Positions 4,894-31,181 of a stretch of DNA of 32,058 nt are shown one piece after another (position 1 is the first letter of the stretch; each line of letters begins with the position of its first letter). The stretch is from NCBI GenBank assembly GCA_003165795.1, contig PMWW01000125.1, positions 19,167-51,224 on the forward strand, read 5' to 3'. The notes beneath the pieces were generated by a model. The model was not told the DNA's origin and ran no database searches. It saw only the letters and a list, made by a program, of their open reading frames with translations. Source of the DNA: Acidobacteriaceae bacterium. GTDB lineage: Bacteria; Acidobacteriota; Terriglobia; Terriglobales; Acidobacteriaceae. The translations under genes and the position numbers were made by a program.

Positions 4894-6612
4894 TTACTTG
4901 CCCTTGCGACCACCTCCGCAGCTCCCGCCCTGTACTGAAGTAAGCACTCCGGCGGCGGCGGTGAGGGTCTGGTCCCAGCAGGCGCCATTGGAATTGGAGT
5001 ACTGGTAAGTCTCCGAGTTCGCCTGCCCGGTGGTGGTCGCATTGCCCGACGCGTCGACGAAGAGCGTGTCGGTCGGAGTCACCGCATCGTAGAAGGTGCT
5101 GGAGTAGATGGGTGTGCCGTTCAATTCCACCAGTTCGCTCTTGTTGAATCCCTGCTGGAGTTTGCTGAACTGCTGAAACGACCCGTTCGGGAAGCCAGTG
5201 TAACCGTAGGAAACCGTCAAGGGCCAGGTGAACTGTTTGGTGTTGGTGGTCACGTTGCTGCCGTCTTGCGTCGTAGTGGCGGAGGAGATCGAGGTTGTCT
5301 GCCCCACGTACTGATCGTCCACCGAACCATCTTCGTGGACGTAATACTTTTGCCAGTTGGTGAAGTCGATGCTCTGTACGACCTTGGTATCCACCGTGCC
5401 ATGCGAGGTATTGGCGTAGCCCTCGACTGTGAATCCGCGGTCGGAAGTGACCGACAATGTGCCATAAGCAATCGTGCCGTTGGTACTAATGTTCTCGGTC
5501 ACTACCGGCTGCGGCGTGCCGATGGTGTTGGTGGTCACGGCTCCGGTCACCTGAGTGGAACCATGGTCCTCATACAACAGCACCGAGGCAGTAGCGGAGA
5601 AGTACTGGTCCGCGTTATAGACGCTGACCGCGACCGTGTGCTGCTGACCATTGCTTAACACGCCGGCGAAGGGGGTCAGGTCCACGCGATACGGTTCGAA
5701 GTTGAGCGTATGAACACCGGGAATCGGTTGCCAGAGGAAAGGATCGATTCCGCCGGTGAAGATCCAGGGATAAATTGGCGCTACGCCGGCAGGCTGGCCA
5801 TCGATGCTGACCTCGCCTTCGCGAAAGGCAGTCGAACCGCAGCTAAACAGCTCGCCGGCTACATCATTGGGAGCGCAGGTATACCAGAATTCGTCGTCCT
5901 GCTGGCTTTGCGCGAAGACGTCGAGATAGGCGCGCTCGACGTTGAGCGGGAAACTAAACGTCCCCGTGAGTTGGTCGGTGGGCGAGTTTAGAGTTACGGT
6001 TCCTCCGGTCGGACCTGCCGACATCGGCAACACCACATCGGCGGTAGTCGGCGGATTCTGACCCTGCGCCAGGGGATAGAACTGCAGCGCTGCGCTTCCG
6101 TGGTAATGGCTGGTGTATTGATTATTGACCAGATTGAACAGATCGACTTGACCGTTTTGCGCGGTCGTAAACAACGGGCTGTAGTCCGTCAGATTGCTTT
6201 CCGTGTGCCAGGTGCGTTCGAAAGTTTGCGATGGCTCGGCTGTTGTGCCGAAGAAAACATTTGCGCCACCGATCCAGACATTGGTGGTGCGATCGTACTG
6301 CACCCCAGGATCGACCGACCAATCCGCCTCAAACACTACCGCAGCCCAGGGGCCCGGGCAGTTGGCGGGAGGCGTGTAGCTGAAGTACTGGGGATTGAAG
6401 TTCGAAAAATCGAGATTGGTGAATAATTGCACCGTGCACGGCGTGGTGGACGGCCGCGGCACCGGTGCATTGGCGGTGATTGTATTCGGCGAACCGACCA
6501 CTGGATTGCCCGGCGCGACGTAGTTCTGCGCGACCGCCGCGCCGGTGAGCAGCAATGCCACGCCGATGGAGGCAACGATCCAGGCTGGCGGGAAACAGAA
6601 AGACTTATGCAT
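4894..6612 (-). CDS. Secreted PNGase A-like protein (peptide-N4-asparagine amidase A family)
   Basis: The 572-residue protein has a signal peptide (residues 1-28, ending GAAVA before QN), so it is exported. The N-terminal domain carries signatures of the plant-type PNGase A family: NLDFSNFNP near residue 66, WAAVVFEADWS near 89, VQYDRTTNVWIGGANVFFG around 104-122 and TTAEPSQTFERTWH around 123-136. These are followed by LTDYSPLF. PNGase A enzymes release N-glycans from glycopeptides by hydrolysing the glycosyl-asparagine amide. The later half is Thr/Ser/Asn-rich and beta-strand-like. The C terminus (CGGGRKGK) has no anchor motif. The ATG at 6612 has AAGGAG eight bases upstream. A good terminator follows, so the gene is probably monocistronic. 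Family membership is fairly sure; activity is inferred. Confidence 0.8.
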   Translation of the reverse strand: MHKSFCFPPAWIVASIGVALLLTGAAVAQNYVAPGNPVVGSPNTITANAPVPRPSTTPCTVQLFTNLDFSNFNPQYFSYTPPANCPGPWAAVVFEADWSVDPGVQYDRTTNVWIGGANVFFGTTAEPSQTFERTWHTESNLTDYSPLFTTAQNGQVDLFNLVNNQYTSHYHGSAALQFYPLAQGQNPPTTADVVLPMSAGPTGGTVTLNSPTDQLTGTFSFPLNVERAYLDVFAQSQQDDEFWYTCAPNDVAGELFSCGSTAFREGEVSIDGQPAGVAPIYPWIFTGGIDPFLWQPIPGVHTLNFEPYRVDLTPFAGVLSNGQQHTVAVSVYNADQYFSATASVLLYEDHGSTQVTGAVTTNTIGTPQPVVTENISTNGTIAYGTLSVTSDRGFTVEGYANTSHGTVDTKVVQSIDFTNWQKYYVHEDGSVDDQYVGQTTSISSATTTQDGSNVTTNTKQFTWPLTVSYGYTGFPNGSFQQFSKLQQGFNKSELVELNGTPIYSSTFYDAVTPTDTLFVDASGNATTTGQANSETYQYSNSNGACWDQTLTAAAGVLTSVQGGSCGGGRKGK

Positions 6613-6838: not shown

Positions 6839-7774
6839 TCAGATTTCTAACTTACCGGTGAGTTCGCTGATCTTTTCAATGCGATGCTCCAGGCACCACT
6901 TTTCCAAAGAATCCACCAATGTTTCGCAGGCGCAAGGGTCCCAGAAGTTGACGGTGCCGACTTCGACGGCGCTGGCCCCGGCGAGCAAGAACTCGACCAC
7001 GTCTTCTGCCGTGCTGATACCGCCCAACCCCACCACCGGAATCTTGACCGTCTTGGCCGCTTCCCAAACCATGCGCAACGCAATGGGTTTGATGGCGGGA
7101 CCGGACAGCCCGGCGGTGACATTCGATATGCGCGGCTTGCGCGTTTCGGCGTCAATCGCCATGGCGACAAAGGTGTTCACCAGCGAGATGGCGTCTGCGC
7201 CCGCATCTTCCGCCGCTCGCGCTACGTCGGGAATGCTGGTCACATTGGGCGACAGCTTCACAATCAACGGCCGGGTAGCGATCTTCTTCACTGCGCTTAC
7301 TACATCGAACAACATCTTGGGATCGGCGCCGAAACTCATGCCGCCGCACTTGGTGTTGGGACAAGAGACATTCAACTCGTAGCCGGCGATGCCTTCGCCG
7401 TCATTGAGAATCCGCACCACGTCTTCGTACTCATCCTGCGAATGGCCGAAGACATTGCACAGAAAAACGATGTTGTCGATTTTGCGCAAGAGCGGAAGCC
7501 TCTCTTCCAGAAAGGCGCGAGCGCCGATATTTTGCAGACCGATCGCATTCAACATTCCGGCCGCAGTCTCAAACAAACGCGGCGGAGGATTGCCTGCCAT
7601 GGGCTCGCGCGAAAGTCCCTTGGTCACGAAGCCGCCCAGCCGGTTCAGCGTAACTACGTCTTCGAATTCCACGCCGTAGCCAAAGCTTCCGCTGGCGGCG
7701 AGGACGGGATTCTTGAACGTGATGCCGGCGACGTTGACGCTCATGTCAAGAGCGGGCTTGGGGGCGGGACTCAC
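6839..7774 (-). CDS. pyrD: Dihydroorotate dehydrogenase, class 1B catalytic subunit
   Basis: The 311-residue FMN protein oxidises dihydroorotate to orotate in pyrimidine synthesis. It opens with VAGITFKNPVLAASGSFGYG and has GFVTKGLS and MLNAIGLQNIG. The active-site loop ELNVSCPNTKCGG carries the catalytic base C138, a cysteine as in class 1 cytosolic enzymes. FMN phosphate-binding segments GLGGIST and AVEVGTVNF come late. The sequence is closer to the NAD-dependent 1B type, which needs a PyrK electron-transfer subunit. No pyrK is in this window. The GTG at 7774 is chosen because GGGAG precedes it; an in-frame ATG at 7744 is the alternative. The gene begins 13 bases after the polysaccharide synthase gene, so the two are probably co-transcribed. 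Confidence 0.93.
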   Translation of the reverse strand: MSPAPKPALDMSVNVAGITFKNPVLAASGSFGYGVEFEDVVTLNRLGGFVTKGLSREPMAGNPPPRLFETAAGMLNAIGLQNIGARAFLEERLPLLRKIDNIVFLCNVFGHSQDEYEDVVRILNDGEGIAGYELNVSCPNTKCGGMSFGADPKMLFDVVSAVKKIATRPLIVKLSPNVTSIPDVARAAEDAGADAISLVNTFVAMAIDAETRKPRISNVTAGLSGPAIKPIALRMVWEAAKTVKIPVVGLGGISTAEDVVEFLLAGASAVEVGTVNFWDPCACETLVDSLEKWCLEHRIEKISELTGKLEI

Positions 7775-7787
7775 GCGTAGATCTCCC

Positions 7788-10700
7788 TCATTGCGCTTCG
7801 CGCTCGCGGGCGATCACGACCGGTTGCCTTACGTTGGCGGCGCGCTCCAGTTTGTCCCACGCGAAACCGCCGCCCTCCATGGCGCGCTTGAGCGTCTTGA
7901 GCAAAACCAGTGAGAACAACTGGCGATAAGCGAAGCGTTGCAGCCAGACGTGACCCAGCAGCAGGAAGTCGCGCTTGCCGCCCGGCTGTTGTCGCTCCAG
8001 AGTAAAAGCGATGGTGGAGGCGATGAAGTCGATCACCATGAACAGCGCGAAGTACACCACTAGCTTGTGGAAGTCGGCCGGGTTCGCCGATTCAGGATGG
8101 CGATACTTGTCCACGAAGTAAGTAATCATTCCCACCACGAACATGATATCGATGAATGGCGAGACCAGCGGAAGCAGGATCTGGAAGATCACCATATTGG
8201 GAATGGCAACCCGGCCCAGCGCTCCTTTTTGCTTGACTGCCTCGCGATGTTTCCACACCGCCTGCATGATGCCGAACGACCAGCGAAAGCGTTGCCGCAT
8301 CAATGCATTGGCTGTGCTGGGAGCTTCGGTGTACGCCAGGGCGCGGTCCTCGTAGTTCACCCAGTAGCCGGCCTGCAGCAGTGCCATGGTGAGATCGGCG
8401 TCTTCGGCGACGGTGTCGTGATGATAGCCTCCGGCGGCGCGGACAGCTTCCGTACGCCACGCCCCGATAGCTCCGGGGACGACGCTCACGGCGTTTAGGG
8501 TGTTCAGCGCTCGGCGCTCGAAGTTCTGGCTGGTGATGTACTCCAAAGCCTGCCAGCGTGTCCAAAGATTGACCCGGTTGCCGACCTTGGCGTTGCCGGC
8601 CATGGCCGCAACTTTGGGATTGCTGAAGTGCGGCACCAATTTCGAGATGGCATCGGGCGCGACGAGGGTGTCGGCATCAATGCCGATGAACAACTCCTCG
8701 GTGACCTGCTCGAGTCCGTAGTCCAGGGCATCGGCCTTGCCTGAATTGGCTTTGGTAAGGACGGTGACGCGCCCGGCCGCAATCTCCTTGGCGAAGGCCG
8801 CCCGAGTGACTTCCAGGGTTGCGTCCTTCGACCCGTCATCAATCACGATGACGCGCAAATTCTTGTAATCGGAATCGAGCACGGAGCGCACCGTACGCTC
8901 GATCACTTTCTCCTCGTTGAAAGCCGGCACCAGTACAGCGACCGCCGGGCGATAGTTGGGATCGAAGCTGGCCTTGCGGCGGTGGAAGCGGTCATAGATG
9001 GCGAGCGTCCCGATCAGCACCAGCCGTCCGGTCATCAGCACGTCGCCGACGAAGAAAACGAAGATGATGAAAGACTGCACCAGGCCGAAGAGGGAAAAGT
9101 TCAGACTATCGACCCAGGCTGCCCAGCGCTCATTGGTGGTGATGGCAGGCATCACGTCAGCGCGCGTCTTGCCCATCAGCTCCGAGACCTGAACTACCTG
9201 ATAGCCGCGGTCGTGCAGCCCATCCAGGATCATGCCGAGCGCTTCGACAGTTTGACTGCGATTGCCGCCGCCATCGTGCAGAAGAATGATGTTGCCACAG
9301 CGCAAATTTCTCGCCCCGCAAGGCGGCAGGTTTGCCAGCACATCGGCAGCGATGTCATCTGCCGAGCGCCGCGGATTGTCGCGCCAGTCGTTGGGATCGA
9401 TTTTTTCGCCAACCGTGATGTAACCCAAATCCTGCGCCAGTTCCAGGGGACGAACCTGGTCGGCGGTGTCGGGAGCTTCATCGATGGCGTAAGGCGGCCG
9501 CATGAGCACGGGTTTGACGCCGAACTTGCTTTCAAACAAGCGCTCCGTCAGGTTCAGCTCTACTTCGAAATAGCGCTTCGAGATGTTGCTGATGTCGGGA
9601 TGGGTGAAAGTGTGGTTCCCAATCTCGTGGCCTTCGTTGTAAATGCGGTTGGCGATGCCGGGAAATTTCTCCACCTGGGCGCCGATCAGGAAAAACGTTG
9701 CCTTGGCGTGCTTTGCCTTCAGGACATCCAGAATCTTCGGCGTCCAGGTAGGATCGGGACCGTCGTCGAAGGTGATTGCTACCTTTTTCTCCTGCGTCCC
9801 GCCATACATGTCCACGACGTAAGGCGAGGGCAACGTCTTGAACACCTCGTCGTTCACCAGATTGGTATTGGAATCGATGCTGATGCGGCGCTCGCCGGCG
9901 GAGGGTCGTGACTGAATGCGCAAAATTTCACCCTGACCTTCGATATCCACATCCTGACCTGGCGGCACGATGTCGAGCTTGGCCGGCGCATTGGCCTCGA
10001 AGGGCTTGTCCCACACCGCCCATAACGAACGATCTTCCGAGCCCAGCCGCCACAAGGCGAAGCTATCGATGCCCACAGCGTGCGCCGCCCGCATCTGGTT
10101 GAGCGCAGTCACGCCATCCAAGAACCACACATCGTGGCGAATATTGTTTTCGTCGGAATAGGCGAAGTGCGGATTCATCGCATCGTCGTCGAAGTTGATG
10201 TCGGTCTCGGCATCGGAGGTCTCAAGCCAGGCCTCCTGGGCGGTGACGTTGTGAATGTCTTCCGGCGGCGTGCCTTTCTTCTGACCCTTCTTCATCGCCC
10301 AGTCATACCCATAATTGGCGACGGCGCAGATGATTTTCTCCTTGGGGATCACCTTCAACGCGTCCTGCAGGTTCTTCACGAACCAGTCTTGGCCGGCCAC
10401 TGGTCCAGGATCGCCTCCGGGGTAATGCTGGTCGTAGTTCATCAGGATGAGGCCGTCGGAGATCTTGGCAATGTTCGGATAGTCGAAGGTCCTGTCGTTG
10501 ACCGGAACCGCGATGTAGAGCTTGAGCCCATTGGCGTGCAGGTCGTCATAAAGTTCCTGCACCAGCTGGCGGTAATCATTGCGCGAGGTTTCCGGAAAGG
10601 CCTCGATGTCGAGCGTGATGCCTTTGTATTGATCGCTTGCCAGAAACTTCATGAGCTCATCGCGGAAGCGCTGCCGGGCGGCGGGGTCGGCCATGAACTT

Positions 10701-11282
10701 GGCGGTAAGGTCCGGATTCCACTGATTGACGACGGGATCGAAATTGTTGACCAGCGGAAAAACTTCGGTCTGCGCCTTTTCGCCTTTGAGGAACGACATG
10801 ACTTTGTCGTCGACGCTGCGCGGCTTGCCCTTCTCGTCGATGACGTCGTAGAGGGCATTAAACTCCGTCACCGATTGCAGCCGCCCATCGGCGGTGAGCA
10901 CGTGCATCCACTCCGGAAAGAGCAGGTCGATCTGCGGATAGTACTCCTTCAGCGAAGCGAAGCTGGCCGCGTCCCACTGCACATAGAACGCGCCACGGAT
11001 GCCTTCGTCGGAGTTCAGCACCACCTGCGAAGCAGGTTGTTTGGTCTTGCGGTGGGTGTTCAGGCGGCGAGGCGGCTTGCGCTTCTGATTGTCCTTGAGG
11101 GCGTGGTAGGGCCGCTTGACTTCGGGCAGCGCGACCCCAGGTACCGACGATCCTCGCAACACGGAAACGACAAACAACACGACCAGCAGCGTAACCACGA
11201 TCACGCTGGAATCGATAACGAACCGCAAACGGCGCCACCGCTTGCGGTCAGGATCAAAAAATATCTGCTTCGATTGCGGCAT
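7788..11282 (-). CDS. Tri-domain membrane polysaccharide enzyme: GH18-like + NodB deacetylase + GT2 synthase
   Basis: A 1164-residue fusion. Residues 1-20 are basic and 23-43 form a signal anchor. Residues about 95-430 resemble GH18 chitinase/YaaH-type barrels: GITLDIEAF holds D225 and the acid E227, and GLILMNYDQHY is the later GH18 strand. Residues about 498-705 are a NodB/CE4 deacetylase: TFDDGPD (D506, D507), HTFTHPD (H557, H561) and RPPYA. Residues 730-760 are membrane segments. Residues 778-1010 are a processive GT2 synthase: VLVPAFNEE, DDGS, DAD (869-871), AEDAD (959-963) and QRFRW (997-1001). More membrane helices follow (1028-1058, 1073-1094). The likely product is a beta-linked, partly deacetylated GlcNAc polymer made inward and processed outside. 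Each domain keeps its catalytic residues. pyrD follows within 13 bases. Confidence 0.92.
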   Translation of the reverse strand: MPQSKQIFFDPDRKRWRRLRFVIDSSVIVVTLLVVLFVVSVLRGSSVPGVALPEVKRPYHALKDNQKRKPPRRLNTHRKTKQPASQVVLNSDEGIRGAFYVQWDAASFASLKEYYPQIDLLFPEWMHVLTADGRLQSVTEFNALYDVIDEKGKPRSVDDKVMSFLKGEKAQTEVFPLVNNFDPVVNQWNPDLTAKFMADPAARQRFRDELMKFLASDQYKGITLDIEAFPETSRNDYRQLVQELYDDLHANGLKLYIAVPVNDRTFDYPNIAKISDGLILMNYDQHYPGGDPGPVAGQDWFVKNLQDALKVIPKEKIICAVANYGYDWAMKKGQKKGTPPEDIHNVTAQEAWLETSDAETDINFDDDAMNPHFAYSDENNIRHDVWFLDGVTALNQMRAAHAVGIDSFALWRLGSEDRSLWAVWDKPFEANAPAKLDIVPPGQDVDIEGQGEILRIQSRPSAGERRISIDSNTNLVNDEVFKTLPSPYVVDMYGGTQEKKVAITFDDGPDPTWTPKILDVLKAKHAKATFFLIGAQVEKFPGIANRIYNEGHEIGNHTFTHPDISNISKRYFEVELNLTERLFESKFGVKPVLMRPPYAIDEAPDTADQVRPLELAQDLGYITVGEKIDPNDWRDNPRRSADDIAADVLANLPPCGARNLRCGNIILLHDGGGNRSQTVEALGMILDGLHDRGYQVVQVSELMGKTRADVMPAITTNERWAAWVDSLNFSLFGLVQSFIIFVFFVGDVLMTGRLVLIGTLAIYDRFHRRKASFDPNYRPAVAVLVPAFNEEKVIERTVRSVLDSDYKNLRVIVIDDGSKDATLEVTRAAFAKEIAAGRVTVLTKANSGKADALDYGLEQVTEELFIGIDADTLVAPDAISKLVPHFSNPKVAAMAGNAKVGNRVNLWTRWQALEYITSQNFERRALNTLNAVSVVPGAIGAWRTEAVRAAGGYHHDTVAEDADLTMALLQAGYWVNYEDRALAYTEAPSTANALMRQRFRWSFGIMQAVWKHREAVKQKGALGRVAIPNMVIFQILLPLVSPFIDIMFVVGMITYFVDKYRHPESANPADFHKLVVYFALFMVIDFIASTIAFTLERQQPGGKRDFLLLGHVWLQRFAYRQLFSLVLLKTLKRAMEGGGFAWDKLERAANVRQPVVIAREREAQ

Positions 11283-11552: not shown

Positions 11553-12998
11553 GTGCGCGAACCGGAAGGCAACTCGCTGAGGAGCAGGCAGCAGCGCTCT
11601 TTCTGGCGTCTGCTCCGAGAGTCTCGGGAGTATTTCCTGTTGATTACGTTAGCCGCATTTGCGCTGCGGCTGATCTTCTATTTTCGCTTCCCGCACGTTA
11701 CCGGGGATTCCCTGGTTTACGGTGACATCGCCAGGAATTGGCTCGACCACGGCATCTTTGGTCTGACCCATAGCGACGGCGTTCACCCCACGCTGATTCG
11801 CCTTCCCGGCTATCCGGCGTTCCTGGCGGTCTGTTTCCGTCTGTTTGGCAGCGAACATTACAATGCCGTTCTGCTGGTACAGATTGTCATCGACGTCGTC
11901 GCCTGCTTCGTCATCGCCGATCTGGCCCGCCGGACCGTGTCCGAACGCGCCGCTCGCTTTGCTTTCCTGCTGGCAGCTCTGTGTCCCTTTACCGCCAATT
12001 ACACGGTGGCTCCGCTGGCCGAGACGCTCAGCATCTTCTTCGTTGCGGTGGCGCTGGACGCGGCCGTGGCCGGATTCCTGGCGACGGACGCCGAGCGTCA
12101 GTCATGGCCTGCCTGGACGTGGTGCGGCATAGCAGTTTCGGCTGGGATCCTACTGCGGCCCGACGGCGGCATTCTGCTGGTCGCGCTGGGGGTGTTTCTG
12201 CTTTGGAGGATGTGGCAGCAGCCGAAGGAACGACAGCGCCTGTTCTGGGGAGGACTGCTGGTGCTGGCAATCTCGATTGCGCCGCTGGTGCCGTGGGCCA
12301 TCCGCAACTGGCATGACTTTCATCGCTTCCAGCCGCTGGTGCCAAAGTCGGCCAGCGATCCCGATGAGTTTGTCCCCGACGGCTTCGATAAGTGGGTGCG
12401 CACCTGGGCCGCCGACTACGTTTCCACCGAGGAAGTTTACTGGCAGGTTCCGGATGACCAAGTCGATCTGACCCTGCTGCCCTCGCGGGCCTTCGACAAC
12501 TCTGAGGAGCGAGAGAAAACCCAAGCCATCTTCGCCGACTACGCCAAGATACTCGTTGTCAATCCGGCGTTGAATGCTCGCTTCATGGACTTGGCGAAGG
12601 AGCGCATCCGGCGGAATCCGTTTCGTTATTACATTTGGCTGCCGTCGCTGCGCGTCGCCGACATGTGGCTGCGCCCGCGGACCGAGATGTTGCCACTCAA
12701 CTCGCGCTGGTGGGAATACGGTGACGACACGAAAGCGTGCGTGCTGGCTACACTCTGGGGCGTGTTAAATCTGCTCTTCATCGGGGCGGCGGTGATGGGA
12801 GTTGTCCGCGGTCCTCGGCCACGCTACCTCGCCATGATGCTGGTGTTTGTGCTGCTGCGCTCGGCTTTCCTCGGCACGCTCTCTAATCCCGAGCCGCGTT
12901 ACACGCTGGAGTGTTATCCGGTGGTGCTGTTGTTGGGCGGCGCGTGGATCTCGGGTTGGAAGAAGGAAACGCGAAATGATTCCGTTATACAGAAGTGA
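11553..12998 (+). CDS. Membrane glycosyltransferase of the GT39/ArnT-like (PMT) superfamily
   Basis: A 481-residue polytopic membrane protein. The first helix (residues 28-45) is followed by HVTGDSLVYGDIARNWLDHG, whose early acidic residues (D52, D58) match the first periplasmic loop of PMT-type enzymes that use polyprenyl-phosphate sugars. RLPGYPAFLAV is another family feature. About ten hydrophobic segments follow, and a central soluble loop (about 265-370) includes PLVPKSASDPDEFVPDGFDK. The start is a GTG at 11553 with no clear ribosome binding site. The end overlaps the next membrane gene by 23 bases, indicating an operon with 12976-13578 and 13591-13809. The acceptor (lipid or protein) is unknown. 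Confidence 0.82.
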   Translation: MREPEGNSLRSRQQRSFWRLLRESREYFLLITLAAFALRLIFYFRFPHVTGDSLVYGDIARNWLDHGIFGLTHSDGVHPTLIRLPGYPAFLAVCFRLFGSEHYNAVLLVQIVIDVVACFVIADLARRTVSERAARFAFLLAALCPFTANYTVAPLAETLSIFFVAVALDAAVAGFLATDAERQSWPAWTWCGIAVSAGILLRPDGGILLVALGVFLLWRMWQQPKERQRLFWGGLLVLAISIAPLVPWAIRNWHDFHRFQPLVPKSASDPDEFVPDGFDKWVRTWAADYVSTEEVYWQVPDDQVDLTLLPSRAFDNSEEREKTQAIFADYAKILVVNPALNARFMDLAKERIRRNPFRYYIWLPSLRVADMWLRPRTEMLPLNSRWWEYGDDTKACVLATLWGVLNLLFIGAAVMGVVRGPRPRYLAMMLVFVLLRSAFLGTLSNPEPRYTLECYPVVLLLGGAWISGWKKETRNDSVIQK

Positions 12999-25046: not shown

Positions 25047-26297
25047 TTGCTAACCCGCACTCCCGATCGCGAAAGCAGTCCTCCCATTGAGCCCAACTCT
25101 TCCCCCGGCAAGCGGTCGAGTAAGTTGAAAAAGTGGTACATCGTGGCAGCCGTTGGTTTGCTCAACGGGCTTCTCCTGTTCTTGGTGGTGAACCTGGCGC
25201 TGTACGCGATCATGGGAGCAAAACGCGCCCCAACGCCAACCTTAACCCCCACGGAACACTTGGATCGCGACCGGCTGCAGAAGGCGTATCCGGGTTGGCG
25301 AGAGGAGGATGTCAAGGACCTGCTGAATGAAACTCGGCGGGGAGGAAATGAGTTCGAATACGAGCCGTTTACGGCGTTCCGGGAAAGACCGTTCCGGGGA
25401 AAATTTGTAAACATCGACGCTGCCGGGTTCCGGCTCTCGAAGGACCAGGCGCCGTGGCCGCCGCGTCCGGGAGGTACGAACGTATTTGTGTTTGGGGGAT
25501 CGACGGCATTCGGGTACTACCTTCCCGATGACGAGACCATCGCCTCCTATCTGCAGCAACGTGCCACAACCGATCATTCCTCCGCGCCGATGGCGATCTA
25601 TAACTTTGCCCGGCCGGCCTACATCAGCGGCCAGGAATTGATTTTATTTCAGCAGTTGCTCAAAGCGGGATACGTTCCGCAAGTAGCAATATTTATCGAT
25701 GGCCTGAACGATTTTATTTTTGCCGACGGCCAGCCCCGCTTCACCGGTGATATGCGGCGTTTTATGGCCGGACAAGTGGACTCCAATCCGCTGGAAAACG
25801 TGCCCATGGTCCGCGCCGCACATTGGTTGAGCGATCGTTGGGCAAAACCTAAACCCGCCGAGAAGGTGGACTACGCTGATCCCTCGGTGCTGGACAACGT
25901 GATCGACCGGTGGCTGACTAACCAGAAAATGATCAGGTTGATCGGCGCCGGCTTCGGAGTGCGTACGGTTTTCGTGTGGCAGCCAATTCCCATGTACAAG
26001 TACGATCTTCGTTACCATTTGTTCTTGCACTCCGACAAAGCATTTGCCGGATTTGTCCGGGGCGAATACGGTTATCCGCTGATGAACGATCTGTGGACGC
26101 ACGGGCAGTTGGGCCCGGATTTTCTGTGGCTGGCTGACATACAAAAGGACAAACACGAAAACCTATACGTGGATTCAGTGCACTACAACGCAGCCTTCTC
26201 GAAAGCGATTGCCGACCACATCTACAGCTTTCTGCGCGAACCACCGCAGCAGGCCCAGACCAAGGACGGTCACCGCTCGGACCTCCCGCAGCACTAG
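25047..26297 (+). CDS. Membrane-anchored SGNH/GDSL-like hydrolase
   Basis: The 416-residue protein has a basic, proline-rich start, then one transmembrane segment (about residues 31-55, YIVAAVGLLNGLLLFLVVNL) and an extracytoplasmic domain. Block I is VFVFGGSTAFGYYLP (S152), block II-like is YNFARPAYISGQELILF, block III is FIDGLNDFIF with D218-N221-D222, and the block V pair is VDSVHYN (D376, H379). Together these fit an SGNH hydrolase nucleophile, Gly/Asn oxyanion and Asp/His pair. Such anchored members often deacetylate cell-wall or exopolysaccharide sugars. The start is a TTG at 25047 preceded by CAGGAG; another start is possible. No genes are coupled to it. Confidence 0.8.
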   Translation: MLTRTPDRESSPPIEPNSSPGKRSSKLKKWYIVAAVGLLNGLLLFLVVNLALYAIMGAKRAPTPTLTPTEHLDRDRLQKAYPGWREEDVKDLLNETRRGGNEFEYEPFTAFRERPFRGKFVNIDAAGFRLSKDQAPWPPRPGGTNVFVFGGSTAFGYYLPDDETIASYLQQRATTDHSSAPMAIYNFARPAYISGQELILFQQLLKAGYVPQVAIFIDGLNDFIFADGQPRFTGDMRRFMAGQVDSNPLENVPMVRAAHWLSDRWAKPKPAEKVDYADPSVLDNVIDRWLTNQKMIRLIGAGFGVRTVFVWQPIPMYKYDLRYHLFLHSDKAFAGFVRGEYGYPLMNDLWTHGQLGPDFLWLADIQKDKHENLYVDSVHYNAAFSKAIADHIYSFLREPPQQAQTKDGHRSDLPQH

Positions 26298-27525: not shown

Positions 27526-28818
27526 TTACGGGGTAATCTCCCAAAGCACACCTACGCCGTACTGTCCCCCTTGGGATGTGCCATACAGGTTTCCATCTGC
27601 ATCCATCAGCAAATCACCCCCCGGACAACTTCCGTCTCCGAATCCGGTAAATTCGTGCAGGCCGGTCAAGGTCCATCCGCTCAGTGACGGGCTCACCTTG
27701 TAAACGGTGCCTGCTCCCCATGGACCTTGCTGGCACGTAGTGCCGTACAGACTACCCGATTGGTCCATGATCACACCGCCTGAAGGACCAATATTTGGAG
27801 GAAGGATACCTGCGGGAAAAGCGTATAGCACGGTAAAAATCCAACTACCATTGGAAGGCGTCAATTCGTAAACCGTCCCTGCACCATTTTCACCGTATGG
27901 TCCTTCATCTTCGGTTGTACCGTACAAGTTACCCCTTGCGTCAAACATCAGGTTGCCTAGCGGCCAGCAACCGTCGGTTTCAGATTGAAAGGTATGGAGC
28001 ACCTGCGCCGTCCACTGACTTCCCCCGGAGGGGCTTAACTCATAGACAACGCCGCAGCCGTTGGCGCCGGTAGACGTCGTTCCGTAGAGATTGCCTGCCC
28101 CGTCAAGAACAAGGCCCGTCTCTGGCATTATGCCAACTCCAAAACTGTAAAGGATGTTTTCTGTCCATCCACCCGCGGCTGGCGTCAACTGATACACGAC
28201 GCCGAAGTTGTGAGAGCCACCAGCTTGCGCCGTGCCGTAGACATTTCCGGCGCTGTCGAGAATGACGCCCCCTGCCGGGCTGTCACCATCAAGTCCCCCG
28301 GTAAAAGAATGCAGAACGGCTTCAGTCCACGGCCACGTGACCCGAGGAGGAACTTCACTTGGGGAAGTCAGAGAGTAAACCGTGCCGCCGCCAGCCGGCC
28401 CTCCCCCTTCGTTCGTTTGACCGTACAGGACGCCCTTCGGGCCGATGATCAGTCCGCTGCTGGGCCAGGATCCGTCTGCACCACTACCAAATCCCCAGAG
28501 CGGAGCCAGCGCCCACTGACCGTTTTTGTAGCTCATTTTATAGGCGTTGCCATTTCCAAATGCGCCACCGAGGACAGTGGTTCCAAAAATATTGCCCGCG
28601 TTGTCCATAATCAAGGCGCCATTGGGAATGGTTCCGTCTCCTCCTCCAGTAAAACTATGGATTACTTTAAAGGTCTGCGCTTGCACGGGACGCGCCGTGA
28701 GACTTACGAACAAGCATAGTGATATGAGGGGGAGCAGCGTTAGCACTGCCACTGTCGTATTCGTGGGCCTGCTGCTCACTCCGAAGCTCGAACTATGAGA
28801 ATGTGCCTTGTTGGGCAT
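27526..28818 (-). CDS. Secreted GloVer-repeat protein 1 (predicted seven-bladed beta-propeller)
   Basis: A 430-residue exported protein: signal peptide 1-47 (VAVLTLLPLISLCLFVSLTA, cleavage near VQA before Q). The mature part is built of seven repeats of the Gloeo_Verruco (TIGR03803-type) kind. Each ends in a G-N-x-(Y/F)-G-T-T/S box (GNIFGTT, GVLYGQT, GNVYGTA, GNLYGTT, GNLYGTT, GSLYGTT, GNLYGTS), with VLYSF/VLHSF strands and DG-x-P turns between. Repeat length is about 50-60 residues. Seven repeats suit a seven-bladed propeller. The ATG at 28818 has AGGAGG upstream. No anchor or enzymatic motif is visible. It is paralogous to the protein at 29880-31181. Confidence 0.85.
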   Translation of the reverse strand: MPNKAHSHSSSFGVSSRPTNTTVAVLTLLPLISLCLFVSLTARPVQAQTFKVIHSFTGGGDGTIPNGALIMDNAGNIFGTTVLGGAFGNGNAYKMSYKNGQWALAPLWGFGSGADGSWPSSGLIIGPKGVLYGQTNEGGGPAGGGTVYSLTSPSEVPPRVTWPWTEAVLHSFTGGLDGDSPAGGVILDSAGNVYGTAQAGGSHNFGVVYQLTPAAGGWTENILYSFGVGIMPETGLVLDGAGNLYGTTSTGANGCGVVYELSPSGGSQWTAQVLHTFQSETDGCWPLGNLMFDARGNLYGTTEDEGPYGENGAGTVYELTPSNGSWIFTVLYAFPAGILPPNIGPSGGVIMDQSGSLYGTTCQQGPWGAGTVYKVSPSLSGWTLTGLHEFTGFGDGSCPGGDLLMDADGNLYGTSQGGQYGVGVLWEITP

Positions 28819-29879: not shown

Positions 29880-31181
29880 TTAATAGAACCACTGATAGAC
29901 TACTCCTTCATTGTAAGTCCCACCCTGGTAGGCAGTCCCGTAAACATAACCAACAGGGCCGATCGATGGGCCGGCGTACGGCATGCCACCGTCGGTACCA
30001 CCTGTGAAGTCGTACGCCTCACCGTAGTCCCCATCAATCAGAAAGAAGAGTTTGCCGGCACCGTATGTGCCTGCGGTTGGCGAAGTTCCCCAAACCGCAC
30101 CCACCACATCGACGGCTAAACTGTCAAATATACAGGTACTATCATTGAAGGTATGAATGGGTAAATAAACCCATTGTCCCCCAGCGAACTCCAACACAAA
30201 GACGGTTGAAATACCACCGCCGGAAAAACGCACGCGTTGGCTTATTGCCTTCCCCCCAAGACCGCTGCGGTCACCCAAGGAAAGGCCCAATTGACAAGTT
30301 CCGCCCCACAAATTGCCGGAGCTGTCCCACGCTAAGCCAGCGACCGGCGGCGATCCATCGGTGGGTTGGAAACTATAGAGCACGGTTTCGTTCCAGCCTG
30401 ACGATGAGGGGGTCAGTTGGAATACTACGCCTAAGTGATAGGAAGGATCCCCCCCCGCAAAGGCGGTGCCGTATAAATTGCCGGCAGAGTCGATTACCAC
30501 CCCGCTCTCAGGCGTTCCGCCATCTGTGCCACCGCTGAAGCTGTACAACACGCTTTCTACCCAGCCACTGCTGGTAGGGCTTAATTCAAAGACAGTGCCG
30601 TTGCCAGAAGAACCCCCCTGGGAAGTCGTGCCGTACAAATTGCCGGCACTGTCAAGGACCAGTTTGCCGATCGGCGCCGCCCCGTCAGGCGCACCTGGGA
30701 ACGAGTCCAACAGGGTTTCGTTCCAGGGAGCGATGGCTGTAAGAGGCGCTGTAGGTGACGGCCGTAACATATACACTACCCCTTGATTTGTCGCTCCACC
30801 AGACGCTGTGGCTCCATAAACTACCCCGTTTGGCGCCAGGGTTACTGCGCCACTCGGCGAGGCGCCGTCTGTTCCATGAAACGTATAAAGGGGAGAGAAG
30901 ATCCAGCCGGAATTTACGTACCTTATTTCGTAAACCGAACCTGGGGATCTGGTTCCTCCCTCGGCCGTTCCGAAGAGGCTTCCCCCTGGATTGAGAGTCA
31001 CGCCGGTGATCGGATTGGCCCCATCCGATGCGCCCGTGAAATTGTAAAAGACGTTATACTGGGCCGCTGCCGACAAGGCGAGCATCGCCGTCAGCACTAA
31101 AACTAGCACACAGGTTATGGCGAGCGAGCGAACGACAGGCGCTAACCTATTAGCACCAACTGCGTATTGTTTGCTGAACAT
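29880..31181 (-). CDS. Secreted GloVer-repeat protein 2 (predicted seven-bladed beta-propeller)
   Basis: A 433-residue paralogue of the 27526-28818 protein. Signal peptide 1-40 (LAITCVLVLVLTAMLALSAA, cleavage after AAA before Q). Seven repeat boxes are visible in order: GSLFGTA, GVVYGAT, GNLYGTT, GNLYGTA, GNLWGGT, GAVWGTS, GYVYGTA. Preceding strands such as VLYSFSGGTDGGTPESGVVI and ILY/VLYSF turns are shared. The fifth and sixth repeats are the most divergent and hold an insert (LGDRSGLGGKAISQRVRFSG) and cysteines. The ATG at 31181 is preceded by AAAGGGGG. The two GloVer genes are separated by a PD40 fragment and family B repeats. Function unknown; surface display or secretion as a binding scaffold is possible. 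Confidence 0.83.
   Translation of the reverse strand: MFSKQYAVGANRLAPVVRSLAITCVLVLVLTAMLALSAAAQYNVFYNFTGASDGANPITGVTLNPGGSLFGTAEGGTRSPGSVYEIRYVNSGWIFSPLYTFHGTDGASPSGAVTLAPNGVVYGATASGGATNQGVVYMLRPSPTAPLTAIAPWNETLLDSFPGAPDGAAPIGKLVLDSAGNLYGTTSQGGSSGNGTVFELSPTSSGWVESVLYSFSGGTDGGTPESGVVIDSAGNLYGTAFAGGDPSYHLGVVFQLTPSSSGWNETVLYSFQPTDGSPPVAGLAWDSSGNLWGGTCQLGLSLGDRSGLGGKAISQRVRFSGGGISTVFVLEFAGGQWVYLPIHTFNDSTCIFDSLAVDVVGAVWGTSPTAGTYGAGKLFFLIDGDYGEAYDFTGGTDGGMPYAGPSIGPVGYVYGTAYQGGTYNEGVVYQWFY

Follow-up and report, generated by a model that had tools for sequence, protein, structure and literature searches.

A single-chain GH18–CE4–GT2 membrane protein of Acidobacteriota: a candidate machine for partly deacetylated poly-N-acetylglucosamine

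Introduction

One open reading frame in a 32,058-nucleotide stretch of an Acidobacteriaceae genome (assembly GCA_003165795.1, contig PMWW01000125.1, positions 19,167 to 51,224; the whole stretch is hereafter the window) encodes a chain of three domains, a GH18 hydrolase, a NodB-like CE4 deacetylase and a GT2 synthase, in which all active-site residues are present by sequence. It is proposed that this fusion acts as a synthase-dependent exopolysaccharide machine in a single chain, of the MatB kind with a GH18 domain added, and that its product is most likely partly deacetylated poly-N-acetylglucosamine (poly-GlcNAc), for which a β-1,6 linkage as in PNAG is somewhat likelier than a β-1,4 linkage. 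Resting on sequence, modelling and analogy, this proposal is judged probable, although far from secure. Partly deacetylated poly-GlcNAc is favoured as the product because the GT2 domain groups with actinobacterial CE4–GT2 proteins that share the layout of Streptomyces MatB, which is encoded in a locus connected with PNAG. That the product is a GlcNAc polymer of some kind, as a preliminary description of this DNA had supposed, appears likely from the sequence.

In the best-known biofilm polysaccharide systems, synthesis, deacetylation and cutting fall to separate proteins; in a single chain their stoichiometry is fixed. Such a chain offers a simple system for testing whether the three steps are coupled, and the fusion would also give the Acidobacteriota, which are abundant soil bacteria, a candidate gene for a matrix of poly-GlcNAc. 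The GH18–CE4–GT2 architecture is not new; it is widespread, and has been published in the form of a domain drawing (PMC5762919). No functional study of such a chain was met in the open-licence literature, a scope that does not cover subscription papers.

Active sites, fold and topology

The open reading frame begins with ATG and contains no internal stops. A Pfam search placed all three domains above the curated cut-offs, with Glyco_hydro_18 at residues 196–414 (1.8e-16; 61.2 bits against a cut-off of 29.6), Polysacc_deac_1 at residues 495–600 (7.8e-34) and Glyco_tranf_2_3 at residues 779–1004 (2e-34). The preliminary description had claimed this union of activities in one polypeptide and had named catalytic residues for each (D225/E227, D506/D507, H557/H561, DAD 869–871 and QRFRW 997–1001); both the union and the residue positions are borne out. 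The GH18 domain carries the residues expected of its family, D225, E227, M281-N-Y283-D284 (MxYD) and a terminal W411, and the tyrosine of MxYD and the terminal tryptophan are presumably functional residues of the site. In structural alignment the catalytic acid is present, with D225 and E227 matching the DxE motif of chitinase 5jh8, Bacillus subtilis YdhD and Bacillus cereus SleL. The metal triad of the CE4 domain, DD..HxxxH (D506/D507, H557/H561), is complete and is accompanied by the further motifs known as RPPY, DW and LLH. In the GT2 domain the DD, DxD, ED and QxxRW motifs and the flanking transmembrane (TM) helices are all present, as in processive GT2 synthases.

A full-chain AlphaFold2 model built from 30 aligned relatives has a mean predicted local distance difference test score (pLDDT) of 85.8 and a predicted template modelling score of 0.65. 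Fold comparison with VIA-align fitted residues 93–430 to GH18 enzymes (5jh8, Z 34.4; the spore cortex-lytic enzyme SleL, Z 33.5) and residues 738–1163 to the Chlorella virus hyaluronan synthase 8snc (Z 32.8), and Foldseek fitted the CE4 region to the B. cereus deacetylase Bc1960 (E 7.9e-15).

Hydropathy analysis reveals four strong hydrophobic segments, with cores at residues 21–39, 731–749, 1035–1053 and 1074–1092 (peak >2.0), and three weaker, overlapping ones near 1.2; the model helices 14–42, 716–766, 1021–1061 and 1068–1094 agree with these segments. Because the basic stretch RKRWRRLR precedes segment 1 and DRFHRRK follows segment 2, the N-terminus and the GT2 domain are assigned to the cytoplasmic side. 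The GH18 and CE4 domains are thus predicted to lie outside the inner membrane and the GT2 domain inside, as had been suggested earlier, and neither hydropathy nor the model places the deacetylase in the cytoplasm. The predicted layout is that of MatB, with CE4 outside and GT2 inside in a single chain.

Repeated loss of the GH18 acid

Site conservation was counted over 79 three-domain rows, comprising the window and 78 loci, with near relatives included and about 50 rows from Acidobacteriota. The CE4 sites D506, D507, H557, H561, R595, P597, D632 and H669 are invariant in 79/79 rows, as are the GT2 aspartates, and QRxRW is found in all 77 rows with letters there. The GH18 acid E227, however, is kept in 67 of the 77 scorable rows and is replaced in ten by Q (6), S (3) or P (1), while D225 is kept in 73 of 77. 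On a combined CE4 and GT2 tree (86 rows, 31 loci having been left out beforehand), the architecture itself, GH18 present or not, requires three changes. E227 was mapped on this tree in 53 three-domain rows, of which 11 are without it (the extra one being that of genome G802), and its state requires at least four changes, within three separate branches. These branches, whose names were read from the printed tree, are Bryocella/Granulicella and kin, Rhodobacterales with Rhizobiales, and Verrucomicrobia, where E227 was either lost twice or lost once and regained. Open frames with a dead-site GH18 domain remain full-size. Of the three domains GH18 is also the least conserved, with a median identity to the window of 46%, compared with 53% for CE4 and 70% for GT2 (69 intact rows, picked by coverage).

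With E227 lost in 10/77 rows across three branches and the CE4 and GT2 sites invariant, synthesis and deacetylation are taken to be fixed in the three-domain family and cutting to be optional. The preliminary description had proposed a self-contained machine to make, deacetylate and trim a polymer. The three intact-looking sites in one membrane chain fit this sequence of activities, but trimming cannot be a necessary step, because the relatives that have lost the acid keep the domain. The term 'self-contained' is doubtful, since the chain has no outer-membrane exit of its own and, in Acidobacteriota, the fusion comes with an ArnT-like GT-C gene. The natural dead-GH18 variants, as close kin of intact ones, are ready-made controls for the role of the hydrolase domain; the biological role of the PgaB hydrolase is itself called unknown in PMC7112194. 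In Sulfitobacter (locus L016, 12357–14891), a DUF3131 protein is encoded directly 3′ of a fusion whose GH18 site is degenerate.

The predicted cytoplasmic, juxtamembrane N-terminus of the three-domain proteins carries a conserved motif, IF[FY]DPxRKRW-like (F-x-D-P-x-x-K/R-R-W). F8 and R15 occur in 76/76 rows with letters there, across phyla, D10 in 67 and W16 in 61. A two-domain CE4–GT2 protein of Kocuria carries VFYDPSGKRW, and the motif was not seen in the other 28 CE4–GT2 proteins, by eye and with a loose pattern. It may perhaps contact the GT2 domain or a regulator.

Distribution across phyla

Phylum searches, in which the two best candidates per genome were scored so that further copies can be overlooked, matched 54 of 297 sampled genomes in Acidobacteriota (E ≤ 1e-60; judged by coverage, 51 have all three domains, two are GT2 only and one is truncated at a contig edge), 17/296 in Bacteroidota (E ≤ 1e-70; all three-domain by coverage) and 9/398 in Pseudomonadota (E ≤ 1e-70; eight cover the N-terminus and the ninth, G802, has GH18 by profile). 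Eleven of 346 Actinomycetota genomes matched (E ≤ 1e-70), one being three-domain (G479) and the other ten having no match that extends to GH18, as did one of 348 in Bacillota (E ≤ 1e-60), which is three-domain (G1663). Verrucomicrobiota and a gammaproteobacterium were among the best 80 of 508 relatives in a scan of genome contigs, and a plasmid scan found a relative of the fusion on a Deinococcus plasmid. The recurrence of the same three-domain chain in several phyla, at about 30–88% identity, excludes a chance origin. The earlier statement that similar fusions exist in other bacteria is therefore upheld, a Sphingobacterium example having been drawn in 2018 (PMC5762919).

All 29 CE4–GT2 proteins without GH18 among the compared loci are from Actinomycetota. 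In the three diderm phyla sampled, GH18 is found in every uncut CE4–GT2 match, compared with 1/11 matching genomes in Actinomycetota, the diderm or monoderm status of the phyla being general knowledge. A strict monoderm/diderm rule was rejected, as it is broken by the three-domain proteins of G479 and G1663, from the phyla of Streptomyces and Paenibacillus respectively, in small genomes where contamination is possible. In Kocuria (locus L017, 11203–12189), a separate gene for a GH18-like 'chitinase' adjoins the CE4–GT2 gene that keeps the N-terminal motif; its GH18 match, at 22.9 bits, is below the cut-off and too weak for the pair to be accepted as a split form of the fusion.

Comparison with known exopolysaccharide systems

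On a GT2 tree of 116 rows (14 loci left out, namely the window's own copy, near-copies and truncated ones, with weak GT2 rows also dropped), a branch with a Shimodaira–Hasegawa-like approximate likelihood ratio test (SH-aLRT) value of 97 separates 67 three-domain proteins, 29 CE4–GT2 proteins and one Myxococcota GT2 from PgaC, NodC and archaeal and Bacillota GT2s. The actinobacterial CE4–GT2 proteins that share the fusion family's side have the layout of Streptomyces MatB, which is itself absent from the tree. MatB consists of a CE4 domain outside, a TM helix and a GT2 domain inside, and S. lividans requires both MatA and MatB for its PNAG, as judged with monoclonal antibody F598 and dispersin B; calcofluor staining for β-1,4 glycans is described as unchanged in the matAB mutant (PMC5972031). 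Unlike the fusion, MatB is without GH18 and works with MatA (PMC5972031).

The best-scoring NCBIfam model for the fusion is PgaC_IcaA (TIGR03937), at 175.2 bits against an equivalog cut-off of 422.3. The same model is best for a Streptomyces CE4–GT2 protein (L094), at 195 bits and again below the cut-off of 422; if that protein is a MatB orthologue, its shortfall means that the fusion's score need not count against a PNAG product. With profiles built from the family, E. coli PgaC reaches 200 bits and a NodC 142 for GT2, and for CE4 a NodB reaches 131 bits and E. coli PgaB 12.4. The fusion reaches 118.9 and 99.9 bits with the NodB and NodC models, below their equivalog cut-offs of 240 and 550. 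The comparison with PgaB made in the preliminary description thus holds for function and fails for family, the CE4 domain being of NodB/PgdA type and the hydrolase GH18 rather than GH153.

The E. coli pgaABCD system likewise applies a deacetylase, a hydrolase and a GT2 synthase to one polymer, and the GT2 domain of the fusion is 30% identical to PgaC over 317 amino acids. In E. coli, however, these are separate proteins, the CE4 of PgaB hardly matches, and the PgaB hydrolase is a GH153 domain, which cuts deacetylated PNAG only (PMC5933820). That domain is reported in Gram-negative pga operons only (PMC7112194). A PgaB/PgaC-type pga operon was not found in the genome of the window by profile searches, which gave no match to the PgaB hydrolase domain (GHL13/GH153; the E. 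coli control matched), no PgaD and no PgaA above cut-off. The partial PgaA matches (best 44.1 against 366.65 bits) are discounted, as that model is matched in 12 of 14 control genomes too.

Rhizobial NodB and NodC resemble the fusion in sequence (CE4 38% identical to a NodB over 218 amino acids, GT2 33% to a NodC over 239) and in gene order, CE4 then GT2, but are two proteins with no GH18. Their product is a set of short chitooligosaccharides.

ORF2117 of Sphingobacterium sp. HMA12 has, according to Table 1 and the Figure 1 legend of PMC5762919, 1140 amino acids, four TM segments and GH18, polysaccharide deacetylase and GT2 domains in one chain. It was drawn there as an endoglycosidase candidate, was not expressible, and is likened to the fusion by description only. 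PMC7112194 describes Gram-negative PgaB-like fusions of a deacetylase with a glycosyltransferase, in operons without detectable pgaA and pgaD. In these the glycosyltransferase is N-terminal and the canonical hydrolase domain is lacking, whereas here the glycosyltransferase is C-terminal and GH18 N-terminal; a supplementary figure legend of the same paper also names C-terminal putative hydrolase fusions. As a hint only, acidobacterial dispersin-like sequences form part of a clade in PMC11883664, which mentions PNAG makers without a known locus. On the Deinococcus plasmid (locus L013, 12324–13859), a diguanylate cyclase gene lies 3′ of the fusion, as dgcT adjoins pga in E. coli, and by analogy control of that fusion by cyclic diguanylate (c-di-GMP) is possible.

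Likely product and mechanism

In the proposed mechanism, the GT2 domain would polymerise uridine diphosphate GlcNAc (UDP-GlcNAc) and thread the chain through its membrane helices, and the CE4 domain on the same chain would strip some acetyl groups from the emerging polymer. The GH18 domain would then grip the polymer in the periplasm and cut it at times, as the PgaB GH153 domain does; by analogy with PgaB, deacetylation would naturally precede cutting. In Acidobacteriota, the neighbouring ArnT-like GT-C protein probably adds a sugar to the polymer or to a related envelope glycan.

Several points weigh against a PNAG-like product made in this way. GH18 chemistry is classically β-1,4, and a CE4 domain resembling enzymes of β-1,4 substrates (PgdA, NodB) alongside it fits PNAG awkwardly. 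The GT2 tree does not decide between β-1,4 and β-1,6, because NodC and PgaC are long branches and the root is open. By fold, mannosyltransferase 6yv7 ties with 8snc for the GT2 domain (Z 32.7 and 32.8), and by sequence it outscores it. The loss of E227 in 10/77 relatives implies that the family can do without cutting, and 5/29 CE4–GT2 proteins are by alignment, with misalignment possible, without CE4 metal residues (D507, H557, H561), so that deacetylation would not be universal in the wider family. The MatB evidence may not carry over, because MatB requires MatA, a protein described as without known domain (PMC5972031). No outer-membrane exit was identified, and no report of the product of a three-domain protein was met in the open-licence literature.

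The product could instead be a β-1,4 polymer like chitin or chitosan, with a GT2 domain like NodC or hyaluronan synthase, a CE4 domain like NodB and a chitinase-type GH18 releasing or shortening the chain. The CE4 domain matches PdaB, PgdA and NodB models and hardly PgaB, the GH18 domain matches chitinase and spore-cortex hydrolases, and the gene order is that of nodB–nodC. Against this, PgaC/IcaA outscores NodC as a match for the GT2 domain, both in the window and as the best E-value over 30 relatives, and the matAB mutant retains its β-1,4 calcofluor staining (PMC5972031); a chitin-like product is considered unlikely, if a serious contender. A polymer not based on GlcNAc, made by a GT2 domain taking another sugar donor, is improbable. 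GT2 specificity is unreadable from sequence, the fusion reaches no GT2 equivalog cut-off, and the proximity of 6yv7 in fold and sequence would suit such a donor. Yet the best family models are those of GlcNAc-polymer enzymes, and the CE4 and GH18 domains, both fused to the synthase, come from families that act mainly on 2-acetamido sugars.

A further alternative concerns GH18 alone and is compatible with a PNAG-like product: rather than trimming the polymer, the domain may lead the chain across the wall and the outer membrane as a module that binds glycan or faces peptidoglycan, with hydrolysis optional or lost. The decay of E227 while the domain is retained, the presence of GH18 in the sampled diderm phyla and its scarcity in Actinomycetota, and the appearance of SleL among the nearest solved folds all suit such a role. 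It is nonetheless held to be possible rather than probable, as the acid is kept in the window's protein and in 67/77 rows, where hydrolysis is therefore probably used, and the sampled Actinomycetota and Bacillota each include one genome with a three-domain protein. A broader and more speculative scheme, put forward tentatively and with low confidence, would make GH18 an outer-membrane-related processing module that evolved independently of PgaB GH153 for the same task, was kept in diderms and was mostly dropped in monoderms. Its essential role would be to hold and guide the polymer, so that the fold is retained even as the active site is lost time and again, and the acidobacterial polymer, also decorated by a dedicated ArnT-like glycosyltransferase, would be a previously unrecognised modified poly-GlcNAc.

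Genomic neighbourhood

The features of the locus are collected in Table 1. The genome of the window, 99.35% complete, holds one full-length copy of the fusion gene.

Table 1. Features of the fusion gene and its divergent partner (window coordinates)
Feature	Position	Strand	Basis
GH18–CE4–GT2 fusion gene, 1164 amino acids	7788..11282	minus	Open reading frame, Pfam domains, model
N-terminal motif, predicted cytoplasmic, residues 7–20 (IFFDPDRKRWRRLR)	11223..11264	minus	Conservation across family rows
Predicted signal anchor/TM1, model helix 14–42, hydrophobic core 21–39	11157..11243	minus	Hydropathy, model; N-in by positive-inside rule
GH18 domain, residues 93–430, nearest 5jh8, YdhD, SleL	9993..11006	minus	Pfam, fold comparison
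GH18 catalytic D225-x-E227	10602..10610	minus	Alignment to family and solved GH18s
CE4 deacetylase domain, residues 492–706 (D506, D507, H557, H561, R595, D632, H669)	9165..9809	minus	Pfam, alignment, Foldseek
TM2, long model helix 716–766, predicted return of chain to cytoplasm	8985..9137	minus	Hydropathy, model
GT2 synthase domain, residues 770–1020 (D815/D816, D869–D871, E960/D961, QRFRW 997–1001)	8223..8975	minus	Pfam, alignment, fold
TM3 and TM4, model helices 1021–1061 and 1068–1094	8001..8222	minus	Hydropathy, model
PMT_2/ArnT-like GT-C membrane glycosyltransferase, 481 amino acids, divergent from fusion	11553..12998	plus	Pfam, model, locus comparison

The model of the PMT_2 protein has a pLDDT of 88.9, and its nearest solved fold is ArnT, at a low template modelling score of 0.40. 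Of the 51 Acidobacteriota loci with at least 600 bp upstream (window included; mostly one family), 46 have a PMT_2 gene adjoining the fusion in divergent orientation, the five without it being L021, L051, L053, L059 and L110. None of 89 other loci, a set that includes mere GT2 or CE4 relatives, has it. Among 41 relatives, both genes occur in 19 genomes, the fusion only in four (two of these 71–74% complete), the partner only in one and neither in 17 (Fisher p 6e-7, a statistic that ignores kinship); in 17 of the 19 genomes with both, the two are side by side. In literature searched for the fusion, PNAG systems and acidobacterial exopolysaccharides, and not for each of these points, no mention was met of this partner, the recurrent loss of E227 or the membrane-type pattern.

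Downstream, pyrD (6839–7774, minus strand) follows the fusion at 13 bp. It adjoins the fusion in the window and five same-genus loci (L047–L050, L052) of the six whose downstream flank exceeds 1 kb, the exception being L051, and elsewhere is represented only by a 24% match in one Verrucomicrobia genome (L084 and L148), with flanks ranging from none to about 9 kb. As an operon partner pyrD was rejected in favour of local synteny, and because its linkage is confined to the genus, the divergent fusion/PMT_2 pair outlasts the rest of the neighbourhood.

The long open reading frames at 25047–26297, 27526–28818 and 29880–31181 gave no Pfam match at E 0.01. A gene at 4894–6612 (minus strand), with no match beside the fusion in other loci, where flanks are often only 1.5 kb, encodes a PNGase A-like protein (PF12222, 4.2e-58), of a family of N-glycan-releasing enzymes.

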